Source of the DNA: Bacillus pumilus
Lineage (GTDB): Bacteria; Bacillota; Bacilli; Bacillales; Bacillaceae
Length of the DNA stretch: 64,000 nucleotides
Assembly: GCF_009937765.1 (NCBI RefSeq)
Contig: NZ_CP047089.1
Span: forward strand, 804,272-868,271
Reading direction: 5' to 3'
Part shown: one piece after another, positions 46,360-50,808 of the stretch
Layout of the letters: every line of letters begins with the position of its first letter
How positions within the stretch are numbered: position 1 is the first letter of the stretch
Notes under the pieces: generated by a model
Databases searched by the model: none
The model's input: only the letters and a program-made list of their open reading frames with translations
What the model was told of the DNA's origin: nothing
Position numbers and translations under genes: made by a program

Positions 46360-47991
46360 TTATGACGAAAAATACATACGGTCAAAGGGAATTTCATACT
46401 GTGACACGTGAAAACCAATGCCTTTCAGGCGCTTATTATAAACAGCCTTTGTCACAGAATAAGAGATTGGAATGTAGACATTTTCATCATGAATATACGT
46501 CAAGACGTCTCGATACATTTGTTTCCGCTTTTTCTCATCTGGTTCTACCAATACTTTCGTAATCGTCTCGTCCAGCCACTTTTTCTTCTTCAACCCTAAT
46601 TGGGCTTGGTAATCAGCATGTGATGCTACGCGGAACGAAGAAACATAGGTTTGAGGATCATAAGGAAGTCCCCATGATAGTGAGTACATCAGGTCGAATT
46701 TCCCTGTTTTTTGTCGATCTAGAAATGCCTGTTTTTCTTCTCCTCTAATATCCAGATTAACTCCAACCTGCTTGAAATCTTGTTGAATCGATTCACTTAT
46801 CGTTCTTTCGCCTGCATTATCGGAATTATAGTAAATGGCGACACTCAGCCTTTTGCCATTTTGATAGCGGTAGCCATCTTCTTTCAGCTTCCAGCCTGCC
46901 TCATCCAATAATGTCTCTGCTTTCTCTTTTTGATAGGTTTTCTTTTTCAGAGGGATATCCGCGTAAGGGACTGACGGGGCAAGCAGCGTATGGGCCACCT
47001 GTTCCGTTCCATTTAAAATGCCTTTTGTGATCATCTCTTTTTGAATGGCATATTGAAACGCTTCTCTGACTTTCGGATCTTTTGTCATTGGCTGGTTTGA
47101 ATTGATGACAATCGACCTCGAACCAACAGGTGGACTCACGGTCACACCATATTGACCTGCTTCCTTTAAAGCCTGGAATGAGTCTCCGTCGATCATGTCA
47201 CCATCCGCTCCAAATAAGAGATCTATTTCTCCTTTTTGCAGAGCAAGTAAAATCGTTTGATGATCCGGCATGACTTTCCATTTCACTGTTGAAATGTTTG
47301 GCTTTCTCCCCCAGTAGTGGTCATTCGCTTTAAAAACGGCATATTGATTTTTTTTATGTTCCTTTAGCACATAAGGACCTGTGCCTGCATAGCTTTGAAC
47401 TCCTTTTGCAGTCGTTCCATCAATGAAGCTTTTTGGAGAAATAAAACGGAAGGGACGTGTTAAGCCCAATTCTTCTAACGTAGGATAATAAGGCTCTTTT
47501 AATGTGAGAATAAAAGTATATTCGTCCACCGCCTTTGTGGATTTGATTTCGGATACGAGATTCAGCCAAGCGTTCTTTTCAATGTTTTTAACGACGGCGT
47601 CCATATTCATTTTCACTGCCTTTGCATTAAAAGGCTCACCGTCTGAAAAAGTCACGCCTTTTCGAAGGTGAAAGGTGTAGGTCCTCCCATCCTTTGAAAT
47701 GTCCCAACTTTTGGCTAAGGCAGGCTGAACGCCCTTCTCTGTATTGACGACAAGCGATTCAAACACCATATTTTGAGCGGCCATCTCTCCGCCATATAAA
47801 TGGGGATTGATATCCCTTATATCTTTTGTACTTGCATACACCAGCTCATCTTCTTCTCTGTCATTCATACCGGAAGATGCTTTGTTATCAGAACATGATG
47901 CCAACAAAAAACAAGCCATGACTGAAAAAAGCATCAAGGTGTATGTCACATAGGTTTGCTTTTTCTTTATGTAAACAGGCTGATCACTCAT
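46360..47991 (-). CDS. NikA/CntA-type metal-chelate-binding lipoprotein, Zur-box operon
   Basis: Family 5 binding protein, 543 residues. The start MSDQPVYIKKKQ was chosen because GGAGGTAG lies 5 bases upstream; the longer frame reads into the Zur boxes. The lipoprotein signal ends in CFLLASCS. DINPHLYGGEMAAQNMVFESLV and YAGTGPYVLKEHKKNQYAVFKAND mark the NikA/CntA class. Tandem Zur boxes directly upstream indicate zinc-starvation control, suggesting zinc or a zinc-chelate as cargo. The related operon at 16311-21375 has a Fur box instead. Confidence 0.88.
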   Translation of the reverse strand: MSDQPVYIKKKQTYVTYTLMLFSVMACFLLASCSDNKASSGMNDREEDELVYASTKDIRDINPHLYGGEMAAQNMVFESLVVNTEKGVQPALAKSWDISKDGRTYTFHLRKGVTFSDGEPFNAKAVKMNMDAVVKNIEKNAWLNLVSEIKSTKAVDEYTFILTLKEPYYPTLEELGLTRPFRFISPKSFIDGTTAKGVQSYAGTGPYVLKEHKKNQYAVFKANDHYWGRKPNISTVKWKVMPDHQTILLALQKGEIDLLFGADGDMIDGDSFQALKEAGQYGVTVSPPVGSRSIVINSNQPMTKDPKVREAFQYAIQKEMITKGILNGTEQVAHTLLAPSVPYADIPLKKKTYQKEKAETLLDEAGWKLKEDGYRYQNGKRLSVAIYYNSDNAGERTISESIQQDFKQVGVNLDIRGEEKQAFLDRQKTGKFDLMYSLSWGLPYDPQTYVSSFRVASHADYQAQLGLKKKKWLDETITKVLVEPDEKKRKQMYRDVLTYIHDENVYIPISYSVTKAVYNKRLKGIGFHVSQYEIPFDRMYFSS

Positions 47992-48016
47992 ATGTACTAC
48001 CTCCGAATCTTGTATT

Positions 48017-48054
48017 ATCGTAATCATTACGATTATTAATCGAAATGATTACGA
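48017..48054. promoter_or_regulatory. tandem Zur boxes
   Basis: A perfect palindrome ATCGTAATCATTACGAT (48017-48033) and a second copy TCGAAATGATTACGA (48040-48054) match the Bacillus Zur consensus TCGTAATNATTACGA. They lie 26-63 bases upstream of the binding-protein start. Confidence 0.92.
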
Positions 48055-48108
48055 ATTGAATAATAGCATACAGGAATCGGGAATACAATCACTTTTTTCA
48101 TCAAAAAA

Positions 48109-48128
48109 CAGACTCATAATTGAGTCTG
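48109..48128. repeat. left copy of 20-bp palindromic duplication flanking the IS
   Basis: CAGACTCATAATTGAGTCTG, an 8-bp-arm palindrome, is identical in sequence and orientation to 49634-49653. On the minus strand it is directly followed by six T, as in an intrinsic terminator. Confidence 0.9.
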
Positions 48129-48130
48129 TC

Positions 48131-48160
48131 AGCTTGTAGACAAAGTCTACAAGCTTTTTT
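48131..48160 (+). terminator. hairpin terminator in the left end of the IS
   Basis: AGCTTGTAGAC-AAA-GTCTACAAGCT followed by T5 on the plus strand, upstream of the transposase. It would stop transcription entering from outside. TATAAT at 48162-48167 is a possible transposase -10. Confidence 0.85.
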
Positions 48161-48200
48161 GTATAATAAGGGTAATAACAATAATCTGTGGGGGATAAAC

Positions 48201-49556
48201 ATGTTATCGAAACGTGAAGAAGAAAGAAGAAATCAATTAGAAGTAGTGGCTTTAGATGAATTAGTGCCTGAAGATCATCTTGTGCGGAAAATTGAACAAG
48301 CAATCGATTTCGACTTCATTTATGATCTTGTCAAAGATCATTATAGTTCTAATAATGGTAGACCAAGTGTTGATCCTGTTGTTCTCATTAAGATGGTCTT
48401 AATCCAATATCTATTTGGTATTCGCTCTATGCGTCAAACCATTAAAGAAATTGAAACCAATGTGGCTTATCGTTGGTTTATTGGGTATGGATTTTCGGAG
48501 AAAATTCCGCACTTTTCTACCTTCGGTAAAAACTACGTGAGACGCTTCCACGATACAGATTTATTCGAACAAATTTTTTATCGAATCTTAAGAGAAGCGA
48601 TGAAAAAAGGGCTCGTTGACCCGTCTATCGCCTTCATTGATTCGACTCATGTCAAAGCGAACGCCAATAAGAAAAAACTTGAAAAGAAAATCGTTCGAGT
48701 TGAGACAAGAAGTTATCAAAATCAGCTTCATGAGGAGATCAATATTGATCGTGAAGAACATGGAAAAAAGCCCTTACCCCTACAGAATAAAGAAGAAACA
48801 AAAGAAATCAAGGTCAGTACAACTGACCCAGAGAGTGGCTATTATGTAAAGTATGAACGTGAAAAGTCATTTGCTTATTCATTTCATACAGCTTGTGATT
48901 CAAAAGGATTTATTTTAGGCTCGCTGGTCACAGGCGGAAATGTTCATGATAGTCGTATGTTGGATTCACTCGTATCAAAAGTGACAGAGAAAGTCGGAAA
49001 ACCAAATGTAGTCGCAGTAGATGCGGGATATAAAACACCTTACATCGCTAAGTTCTTAATGGATCAAGAGATAAGACCTGTCATGCCCTACACTCGTCCA
49101 AGAACAAAAGCTGGTTATTTGAAAAAGAATGAATACGTATATGATGCATATTTTGATTGTTACATTTGCCCCAACGGGCAAATTCTCTCTTATCGTACAA
49201 CGACTAGAGAAGGCTATAAGCAATATGCATCCGATTCAGAAGTATGTGAGTCCTGCTCGTTTTTAGATAAGTGTACCCAAAGTCAAAACCACACCAAACA
49301 AATTCATCGGCATATTTGGCAGGATTATCTAGATGAAGCAGACAATCTGAGACTCACTGAAATAAATAAGAGCATCTACGCAAAACGGAAAGAAACGATT
49401 GAACGCGTTTTTGCGGATGCAAAAGAAAAGCATGGTATGCGTTGGACGAAACTTCGTGGACTAAAAAAAGTTTCAATGCAAGCGATGCTTACTTTCGCTG
49501 CCATGAACCTTAAAAAGCTAGCAAACTGGACATGGAAAGTACCATGTCCAGCGTAA
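48201..49556 (+). CDS. IS1182-family transposase
   Basis: 451 residues from the ATG after GGGGGATAAAC; a 27-codon upstream extension lies in the terminal repeat. An N-terminal DUF772-type helical domain (about 20-110, PSVDPVVLIKMVLIQYLFGIRSMR) precedes the DDE domain: first Asp in AFIDSTHVKANAN, second in VVAVDAGYKTPYIA and Glu in KRKETIERVFADAKEKHGMR. A zinc-ribbon-like cysteine cluster (CYICPNG, CESCSFLDKC) lies between. All catalytic residues are intact. Confidence 0.92.
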   Translation: MLSKREEERRNQLEVVALDELVPEDHLVRKIEQAIDFDFIYDLVKDHYSSNNGRPSVDPVVLIKMVLIQYLFGIRSMRQTIKEIETNVAYRWFIGYGFSEKIPHFSTFGKNYVRRFHDTDLFEQIFYRILREAMKKGLVDPSIAFIDSTHVKANANKKKLEKKIVRVETRSYQNQLHEEINIDREEHGKKPLPLQNKEETKEIKVSTTDPESGYYVKYEREKSFAYSFHTACDSKGFILGSLVTGGNVHDSRMLDSLVSKVTEKVGKPNVVAVDAGYKTPYIAKFLMDQEIRPVMPYTRPRTKAGYLKKNEYVYDAYFDCYICPNGQILSYRTTTREGYKQYASDSEVCESCSFLDKCTQSQNHTKQIHRHIWQDYLDEADNLRLTEINKSIYAKRKETIERVFADAKEKHGMRWTKLRGLKKVSMQAMLTFAAMNLKKLANWTWKVPCPA

Positions 49557-49585
49557 AACACATGATGTTTTTTCAAAAAATGTGA

Positions 49586-49620
49586 AAACCCCACTTTTAC
49601 TTGAAGTAAAAGTGGGGTTT
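49586..49620. terminator. terminator hairpin in the right end of the IS
   Basis: AAACCCCACTTTTACTT and AAGTAAAAGTGGGGTTT arms around a single G form a long stem. Read on the minus strand it is followed by TTTTCACATTTTTT, so it could also stop transcription coming from the glycosyltransferase gene. Confidence 0.8.
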
Positions 49621-49633
49621 GTCTACGGTCTGA

Positions 49634-49653
49634 CAGACTCATAATTGAGTCTG
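49634..49653. repeat. right copy of 20-bp palindromic duplication flanking the IS
   Basis: Identical to 48109-48128. It contains the stop codon and last codons of the glycosyltransferase gene. Confidence 0.9.
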
Positions 49654-50808
49654 TTTCGTCTGCATCCATTGATCGATCGTCCGCAATGCTTTATCGGTTC
49701 CACCTGCTGTTTGGAAGCTTTCTTCAATTTTTTCAATTCCAGCACGGTACGTGTCGCTTCCTAGAACAGATTCTACGGTTTCTCTTAGCTGCTTTGCTGT
49801 CAGTTGATCTTTATCAAGTGCTCGGGCAGCAGATAGCTCGGTCAGTCTTTGTGCGACCATCGGCTGATCTTTGTCGACCGGAATGACAACCATTGGCACG
49901 TGATAATGAATGCCTTCATTGACACTGTTCATTCCGCCATGTGTCACAAACACGTCTGTCAGTTCAAGCACTTCAAGCTGCGGCACATAAGACTCGATCA
50001 GAAAATGAGAAGGTGCTTCTTTTAAGAGAGACCGATCCACTTTTTCACCTGTTGCGAGTACCACTTTTCCATCAAAATCGGCAAAGGCATCAATACACAT
50101 ATTAAAAAATGCCTCTGTATCTCCAAGAACAGTTCCCATCGAAATAAAGACAACTTTTTCTCGCTCAAGAGCTTCCAGCGGGAAATCATGCTGATCTGCC
50201 CTTTTTAGAAAGCTCGGTCCAATGAAAACAAATGAGTCGTTCACTGCATCGACAGAAGGCTGAAAATATTCACTTGTATACACGATATTCAGTTCTCCGC
50301 GATTTTTCATAAATTGCATCAAACGCGTTGGCTGAACGCCAAAACGCTCTTGTATGCTTTCTAACAGATGATCAGCTCTCTCATCCTTTCTGTATAGCGG
50401 TGTATCAAAATGCGCCTCTTGCAGCACAAAGGATGGATTTGAACCGATCCCTGGAATTTGTAAGTAATCTCGAACAAGCTCCCCTGCCCCAAACATATCA
50501 AAATAGACAAAATCAAATGAATGCTGCTGAGATAGTGTTTCCACCACCTCTAAAATATCAAATGATGTTTGCAGCATGGCATGAAAGAACGGCTGCATGG
50601 AATCAAGATTTCCTTCATCCACGTGTAATGTCCGAATATAGTCTGGATGTTTATGTACGTGAGCGCCTAAGCGTTTCATTCGTTCCTCATAATGTACAGT
50701 TGTGACCGCATGCACTTCATCTCCACGATCTACCCATGCTTTGATAATTCCTAACATAGGATTCACATGCCCTTCAGCAGGAAATGTAATCAATAAAACC
50801 TTCGCCAC
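49639..50808 (-). CDS. macrolide-type UDP-glucosyltransferase (YjiC/YojK family)
   Basis: GT1-family, GT-B fold enzyme that glucosylates small hydrophobic acceptors such as macrolides or flavonoids. 389 residues. The N-terminal acceptor domain has FPAEGHVNPMLGI with the probable catalytic His. The C-terminal nucleotide-sugar motif is VTHGGMNSVNEGIHYHVPM followed by PVDKDQPMVAQR. Starts at a GTG behind AGGAGG. Its last codons (KQTQL, stop) lie inside a palindrome that was probably its terminator stem and is now split from its T run by the IS. Substrate unknown. Confidence 0.88.
   Translation of the reverse strand: MAKVLLITFPAEGHVNPMLGIIKAWVDRGDEVHAVTTVHYEERMKRLGAHVHKHPDYIRTLHVDEGNLDSMQPFFHAMLQTSFDILEVVETLSQQHSFDFVYFDMFGAGELVRDYLQIPGIGSNPSFVLQEAHFDTPLYRKDERADHLLESIQERFGVQPTRLMQFMKNRGELNIVYTSEYFQPSVDAVNDSFVFIGPSFLKRADQHDFPLEALEREKVVFISMGTVLGDTEAFFNMCIDAFADFDGKVVLATGEKVDRSLLKEAPSHFLIESYVPQLEVLELTDVFVTHGGMNSVNEGIHYHVPMVVIPVDKDQPMVAQRLTELSAARALDKDQLTAKQLRETVESVLGSDTYRAGIEKIEESFQTAGGTDKALRTIDQWMQTKQTQL

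Follow-up and report, generated by a model that had tools for sequence, protein, structure and literature searches.

An IS1182-family insertion sequence of Bacillus pumilus flanked by two copies of a terminator-like stem-loop, and comparable duplications in its relatives

The element and the stem-loop at its edges

The stretch analysed here (the window) comprises 64,000 nucleotides of a Bacillus pumilus contig and contains an insertion sequence (IS) lying between two minus-strand genes: one for a macrolide-family glycosyltransferase and one for a CntA/NikA-like substrate-binding lipoprotein (Table 1). The IS consists of a single open reading frame enclosed by terminal inverted repeats, as is typical of the IS1182 family, and its transposase matches the family model NF033551 with E 3e-143 and a score of 478 against a cut-off of 270. 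The IS1182-type assignment of the initial annotation thus stands; its extent, given there as 48109-49653, contracts to the element proper of Table 1. A DNA search of the same genome recovers a further full-length copy at 99% identity.

Table 1. Features at the insertion site, in window positions
Feature	Position	Strand	Remarks
CntA/NikA-like substrate-binding lipoprotein gene	46360..48027	-	other flank of the IS; TIGR02294, E 5e-182
Six A on the plus strand	48103..48108	-	U-run of the original glycosyltransferase terminator; now across the IS
Left copy of the duplicated stem-loop (TSD)	48108..48129	.	still attached to the minus-strand U-run tract; terminator-like on the minus strand
IS1182-family insertion sequence, 1503 bp	48130..49632	+	CAG start, CTG end, inverted repeats
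Left terminal inverted repeat CAGCTTGTAGACAAA	48130..48144	+	15 bp, imperfect
Terminator-like hairpin and T-run, inward-facing	48131..48160	+	11-bp stem, loop 3, TTTTT; holds most of the left inverted repeat
IS1182 transposase, 451 aa, DDE type	48201..49556	+	NCBIfam NF033551; Pfam DDE_Tnp_1_6, DUF772, DDE_Tnp_1
Terminator-like hairpin, inward-facing, right IS end	49586..49620	-	17-bp arms
Right terminal inverted repeat CAGACCGTAGACAAA (minus-strand reading)	49618..49632	-	15 bp, imperfect
Right copy of the duplicated stem-loop	49633..49654	.	contains the glycosyltransferase stop codon; U-run lost
Macrolide-family glycosyltransferase gene	49639..50808	-	its terminator was the insertion target; TIGR01426, E 1e-91

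The IS is bordered by two identical copies, in the same orientation, of ACAGACTCATAATTGAGTCTGT, a 22-bp stem-loop with a stem of 9 and a loop of 4. The initial annotation had already seen one palindrome at both edges in one orientation, with the glycosyltransferase stop codon in the stem and the T-run stranded across the IS, and all of this is borne out; the doubling of the whole hairpin is likewise correct, except that its length, put at 20 bp, becomes 22 bp once the outermost A:T pair, which had been omitted, is counted. A consensus scan of positions 47950-49800 returned seven terminator-like sites, including the left hairpin copy (on the minus strand) and both IS ends; the right, glycosyltransferase-proximal copy is absent from these seven. 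As the U-run now lies beyond the IS and the right copy receives no terminator-like call, on the side of the glycosyltransferase gene the original terminator is broken in two. Since terminator-like hairpins face inward at both IS ends, the glycosyltransferase transcript may still end early, thanks to these IS-borne hairpins.

Three residues of the transposase, D147, D274 and E401, are invariant in 33 of 33 aligned transposases, those of ISSau3, ISSep1 and ISCfr1 included, and in view of this conservation and the DDE Pfam match they presumably form the DDE catalytic triad. Four cysteines, C323, C349, C352 and C358 (residues 323-358, window 49167-49274), are invariant in the same 33 rows, sit between the second and third putative catalytic residues and could possibly constitute a zinc-binding insert. 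A sequence search for a solved structure of a relative of this transposase found none.

Two further features of the neighbourhood deserve mention. The inverted repeat consensus CAGNNTGTNGACAAA includes TNGACA, which resembles a -35 box, with TATAAT 19 bp beyond it (window 48130-48167), a spacing that falls outside the range of the consensus scan used on the window; at the left end of the IS a promoter, the hairpin and the inverted repeat would overlap. Upstream of the lipoprotein gene there are two palindromes, TCGTAATCATTACGA and TCGAAATGATTACGA (window 48018-48054), which we take to resemble Bacillus Zur boxes, and this suggests that the gene is under zinc control.

Other copies, empty sites and a miniature element

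The search of the same genome yields two full IS copies and a series of end pieces with abrupt ends (122-130 bp long on the left; 123-128 bp on the right, apart from one of 489 bp), which run on into rRNA operons, other pieces or other DNA. By matching split halves through identical hairpins six additional insertions were reconstructed, a pairing that we infer from the hairpin itself. The other copies, which the initial annotation had named as a place to look for palindromic flanks, do have them: the same hairpin stands on both sides in 8/8 traced insertions (six from paired halves), with duplications of 22, 22, 22, 22, 24, 24, 27 and 32 bp, each different in sequence. Left out of this count are one remnant of a right end (2296746) and one fragment from inside the IS (3772308).

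The 3.77-Mb contig record of this genome resembles contigs joined end to end (loci L026-L036): IS and rRNA-operon sequences are truncated, the IS is cut 122-130 bp inside the repeat, in a k-mer-like manner, and the halves of a single insertion lie far apart. We considered the split halves as real rearrangements and rejected this, an assembly effect being more likely.

Searching with the glycosyltransferase flank matched 42 sister genomes, and we read the best 15 of these. Six of the 15 lack an element at the window site and show one hairpin there, tracts included (L168, L171, L174, L176, L178, L181), which is the empty site anticipated by the initial annotation. In four (L167, L169, L172, L179) another element ends at the hairpin, which is decayed in L172 and has one extra base in L179, and in five (L170, L173, L175, L177, L180) the site is rearranged or diverged. 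L170, L173 and L175 retain a half-hairpin beside unrelated sequence, such as a deletion with one endpoint in the loop might leave. For the other seven insertion sites we read 48 genome-sites, drawn from 76 matches with two loci fetched twice counted once: by eye, 37 have one hairpin and no element, nine are occupied at the hairpin by an element, and L206 and L215 have undergone rearrangement. A scripted version of the empty-site test missed six of the 37 through its limits on loop and perfect pairing. Across all eight sites an element is present at the hairpin in 13/63 genome-sites, affecting seven of the eight.

Some terminator-like hairpins of the sister genomes are occupied by a non-autonomous repeat of about 175 bp (a MITE) with IS1182-like ends of the type CAGCGTGTAGACAAAC and CAGATTGTTGACAAAG, identified in full at L169, L219, L227, L234 and L241. 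In the window's own genome, where 40 of 80 candidates were scored, nearly full-length copies number at least 40, one of them at L032:1583-1757. A hairpin-like duplication of 19-30 bp accompanies 25 of the 30 copies examined and is exact in 13 of these 25. In L250, L257 and L258 each side still has a hairpin, but the two have ceased to be exact matches; of the two hairpins that border L246 the left one is not flush; and in L275 one side lacks a hairpin. In sister species the MITE sometimes sits at the same hairpin as the IS; thus, in G021 (L169) it occupies the window IS's own hairpin with a target site duplication of 24 bp, 1 bp further out on each arm. From the shared ends it is likely that the window transposase moves this MITE. 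At L274 one hairpin copy deviates from the other at two paired positions, a compensatory change that preserves the stem, and both may hence have been kept as working hairpins.

Duplications and targets across the clade

We compiled 102 loci: the best 80 of 547 confirmed relatives, whose transposases were 66-84% identical in protein sequence to the window transposase in a genome scan, 20 stretches from sister genomes and the two own full copies (loci L066-L165, L025 and the window, as given to the end-finder). Duplications of at least 15 bp were found in 69 of the 102, 64 of them within the best 80 of the 547 relatives. All 69 differ in sequence, and 67 are identical on both sides. Their lengths span 19-35 bp, save for one decayed case of 16, and 50/69 begin with A and finish with T. 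Nearly all are palindromic. Self-complementarity was scored with up to three end bases trimmed and a gap of three tolerated in the middle; it reaches 80% or more in 60 of 68 duplications (that of the window together with those of its relatives; L128 was omitted for its decayed left end), as compared with 52 of 13,403 length-matched random windows drawn from these loci and scored identically. In 66/68 the duplication is symmetric about its own midpoint. In 52 of the 66 sites (out of 69) used for the analysis of G:C pairs, the cut falls 1-3 bp beyond the outermost G:C pair. The duplication tracks the stem-loop, and therefore its length varies: it correlates with the length of the G:C-bounded hairpin with r 0.54 over 66 sites and r 0.88 over the 59 whose outermost G:C pair lies inside the duplication, a relation that is partly built in, as the stem is shared. 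A looser stem measure, which extended outward past mismatches, gave r 0.20 and p 0.12 against duplication length; it counted chance pairs outside the stem and was superseded by the G:C-bounded measure.

The 33 loci without a duplication of at least 15 bp have mostly a lost end, a contig edge or a remnant only. For twenty of the 102 the end-finder scored two ends but no shared duplication: here contig edges are reached in L066, L069-L071 and L078; the printed flanks indicate a missing, decayed or doubtful end in L075, L079, L102, L106, L143, L145, L151, L154, L155, L157 and L158; the hairpins to the left and right of L135 are unlike; those of L148 are the same but offset by 1 nt; and in L153 similar stems flank the element with the loop changed. 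No ends were found in seven loci (L077, L088, L109, L141, L152, L156, L165) and no transposase match in six (L159-L164). The last of the twenty, L147:876-3966, presents a distinct arrangement, in which two adjoining IS1182-type elements, the second assigned by eye from its open reading frame and ends, share one pair of duplicated hairpins, as if the composite had moved as one unit or one element had inserted at the other's edge.

The distribution of the targets was assessed on 65 of the 69 sites, rejoined across the element. Fifty-two lie at most 150 bp from the 3' end of an open reading frame reading toward the hairpin (20% of 6500 random positions do), the other 13 having no convergent gene end within that distance; 18 lie between two convergent 3' ends (random positions: 1.9%); and none lies inside an open reading frame of at least 200 aa, where 54.5% of random positions fall. 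Selection against insertion into genes can explain this avoidance of reading frames; such selection cannot make the duplication equal the hairpin. The targets also differ from other hairpins in their flanks. A perfect-hairpin procedure, which missed 17 of the 69 targets and left 52, found both an upstream A-tract and a downstream T-tract at 27/52 targets against 10/70 intergenic hairpins of the same loci (p 1e-5), and neither tract at 1/52 against 28/70 (p 2e-7). In a simple count over all 69 sites, 36 have both tracts, 14 only a T-run on the right, 14 only an A-run on the left and 5 neither. The target, named as a terminator by the initial annotation, is better described as a stem-loop that is flanked by A/T tracts and in most cases follows the 3' end of a gene; terminator-like describes its sequence. 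Like the targets, the element ends fold: in a folding test a hairpin with a T-run appears at the left end of 37/69 elements and the right end of 56/69, against a background of 52/414, and a strict perfect-stem test detects fewer (left 10/69, right 36/69, background 54/2070).

To gauge taxonomic breadth, we hand-picked 25 plasmid regions out of record lists with 1948, 2009 and 267 matches. Sixteen have hairpin duplications: those of Bacillus, Sutcliffiella, Enterococcus, Staphylococcus arlettae and Alkalihalophilus among the Bacillota, and of Vibrio, Salinivibrio, Klebsiella, Providencia, Rhizobium, Sphingobium and Aminobacter among the Gamma- and Alphaproteobacteria. Six regions have hairpins that do not match (L290 and L299, different on each side) or are one-sided (four ISEfa7 loci, which represent two distinct insertions, three being the same, with the hairpin on the right side only by eye). 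The remaining three hold more distant family members, ISSau3, ISSep1 and ISCfr1, whose transposases are 25-28% identical to the window's and at which the script detected no hairpin duplication, the ends of ISSau3 and ISSep1 being placed without certainty. In a tree of 33 transposases these three fall outside the other 30, on long branches and with support of 91/82 (not starred). Since 28 of the 30 transposases of the inner group go with a hairpin duplication and none was detected for the three outside members, the duplication seems to be a trait of a clade within the IS1182 family and not of the family as a whole.

Insertion mechanism and relation to known systems

Classically, each DDE transposase has a fixed spacing between its two cuts. 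A duplication that is centred on a hairpin, has no fixed length and ends near the foot of the stem is not what strand transfer of fixed geometry into linear DNA yields, and a spacing that changes with the hairpin points to recognition of DNA structure rather than sequence. We therefore consider the window IS, with a probability of roughly 70%, to be a member of a hairpin-targeting and hairpin-duplicating IS1182 clade whose DDE transposase would act on an extruded cruciform. In the proposed pathway the target stem-loop is extruded as a cruciform, which the flanking A/T tracts would aid; the transposase would act on the extruded stem-loop, and the two 3' ends of the element would attack the 5' foot of each arm. 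These points of attack would be adjacent in the cruciform and 19-35 bp apart in linear DNA, such that gap repair after the joining of both IS ends would copy the entire hairpin to either side. The inward-facing hairpins of the IS ends may allow each neighbour to retain a transcription stop, in which case terminators would be a low-cost target. Because the IS ends fold as well, the transposase may bind similar structures in donor and target, which we offer as a suggestion.

The chief competitor is a target in the form of a hairpin on one single strand, be it the lagging-strand template or the strand displaced behind RNA polymerase, with the second strand copied later. Single-stranded DNA would fold into the same hairpins and is naturally expected at terminators, and all the analyses of duplications, targets and cut sites are compatible with such a target. 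Nevertheless, a DDE transposase links the two element ends to two strands, and the symmetric, two-sided duplication would come about more simply from a cruciform; we also saw no bias in IS orientation relative to the tracts (14 versus 14, among 69 sites) or the neighbouring gene ends (20 on the left only versus 14 on the right only, among 65 sites); we consequently regard a single-stranded target as rather unlikely. A second alternative takes the transposase to sense the A-/T-tract symmetry of the linear duplex, with a flexible gap between half-sites and the hairpin incidental to the layout of terminators. It would account for the enrichment of both tracts at targets over intergenic hairpins (27/52 versus 10/70) and for the 50 of 69 duplications that start with A and end with T. 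Yet 14 sites have the right tract only and 14 the left only, while the duplication remains centred on the hairpin in 66/68, and a gap of 19-35 bp amounts to a rotation of up to 1.5 helical turns, more than a rigid complex would be expected to accommodate; tract sensing thus appears decidedly improbable. Slightly less credible still is a dependence on termination itself, through paused RNA polymerase or the RNA hairpin and not DNA structure: the targets are mostly at gene 3' ends, but we saw no bias in how the IS is oriented to transcription, and the cuts in the two arms are symmetric. A last alternative, for which we found no positive evidence, makes the hairpin a part of the element that moves with it, or a later product of recombination; in a single copy, identical hairpins at the two ends would resemble long terminal repeats. 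It is refuted by the 69/69 hairpins that differ and by the empty sites that hold the same hairpin.

With action on an extruded cruciform as the preferred reading for the window IS, a broader proposition strikes us as having somewhat better than even odds: namely, that the whole DDE clade, in the Bacillota and the Gamma- and Alphaproteobacteria, transfers strands at the feet of extruded cruciforms. The duplication would then be a footprint of the stem-loop whose length reads the extent of extrusion, and the IS and MITEs would be natural probes of terminator stem-loops extruded in living cells. It becomes testable whether terminator palindromes are extruded as cruciforms in the cell and whether the transposase uses them. 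On the practical side, the duplicated hairpins help in locating element ends, empty sites and gene-sparing insertions.

Terminator stem-loops are likewise the aim of group IIC introns, which are retroelements without a transposase and are not known to duplicate the hairpin.

Within the IS1182 family itself, ISEfa7 and ISBspe1 (names taken from plasmid annotation) have transposases 58% and 48% identical to the window's. Like the window IS, the ISBspe1 copy (20 bp) and one copy of ISEfa7 (23 bp) lie between duplicated hairpins, unlike the four other ISEfa7 loci with their one-sided hairpin. In the literature searched, beyond which ISfinder lies, we found no description of target duplications for either element. 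ISPse1 and MITEPye1 resemble the window IS in family name and inverted repeats but have short duplications of 4 bp, and no hairpin duplication is described in the relevant passages of the reports (PMC3281130, PMC11578231). IS1182-related transposases are more generally stated to act in some cases with and in others without duplication or deletion of the target, and possibly to recognise DNA structure (PMC12056078, in a passage citing others), and a review is quoted as having some family members target palindromic sequences, with no detailed data (as relayed in PMC5678879).

The closest precedents are IS1272 and TnSha1 of staphylococci, IS1182-family elements for which a stem-loop replacing transposition is described. 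As presented in the pertinent sections, their targets include several confirmed terminators, structure-defined cuts are proposed, and IS1272, of about 1.9 kb and with a 548-aa transposase, produces no target duplication, the stem-loop being partly or wholly deleted (PMC4923244, PMC5678879). Judged from these sections, they share with the window IS the family and the targeting of hairpins without a sequence consensus, and the aiming of an IS1182-family element at terminator hairpins is in this sense known (PMC4923244, PMC5678879). The window IS differs in size, at 1503 bp with a 451-aa transposase, and in outcome: IS1272 deletes the stem-loop, whereas here it stands on both sides of the element, duplicated whole, and empty sites have one hairpin. 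IS1272 was compared by description only; the longer transposases of ISSau3 and ISSep1, also from Staphylococcus, are 25-27% identical to the window's over about 235-238 aa, the 548-aa ISSau3 protein 27% over 238 aa.

What appears to be new is the observation of whole-hairpin duplication as the usual outcome in a group of related elements. Our full-text literature searches returned no report of it, and as two IS reviews and ISfinder lie outside their scope this claim of absence is weak. The outcome was foreseen in the model for IS1272: according to the Discussion and the legend to Fig 13 of PMC5678879, in pathway b the stem-loop is attacked at its 5' feet and becomes duplicated in full, while IS1272 itself is thought to use the 3' feet, hence the loss of its stem-loop. 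Pathway b predicts exactly what is seen at the window IS; in those parts of the paper it is a possible branch without an example, whereas in the present clade it is the usual outcome. The clade therefore supplies a case for this branch of the 2017 model, and a comparison of the duplicating with the deleting members of the family could reveal what decides between the two outcomes.
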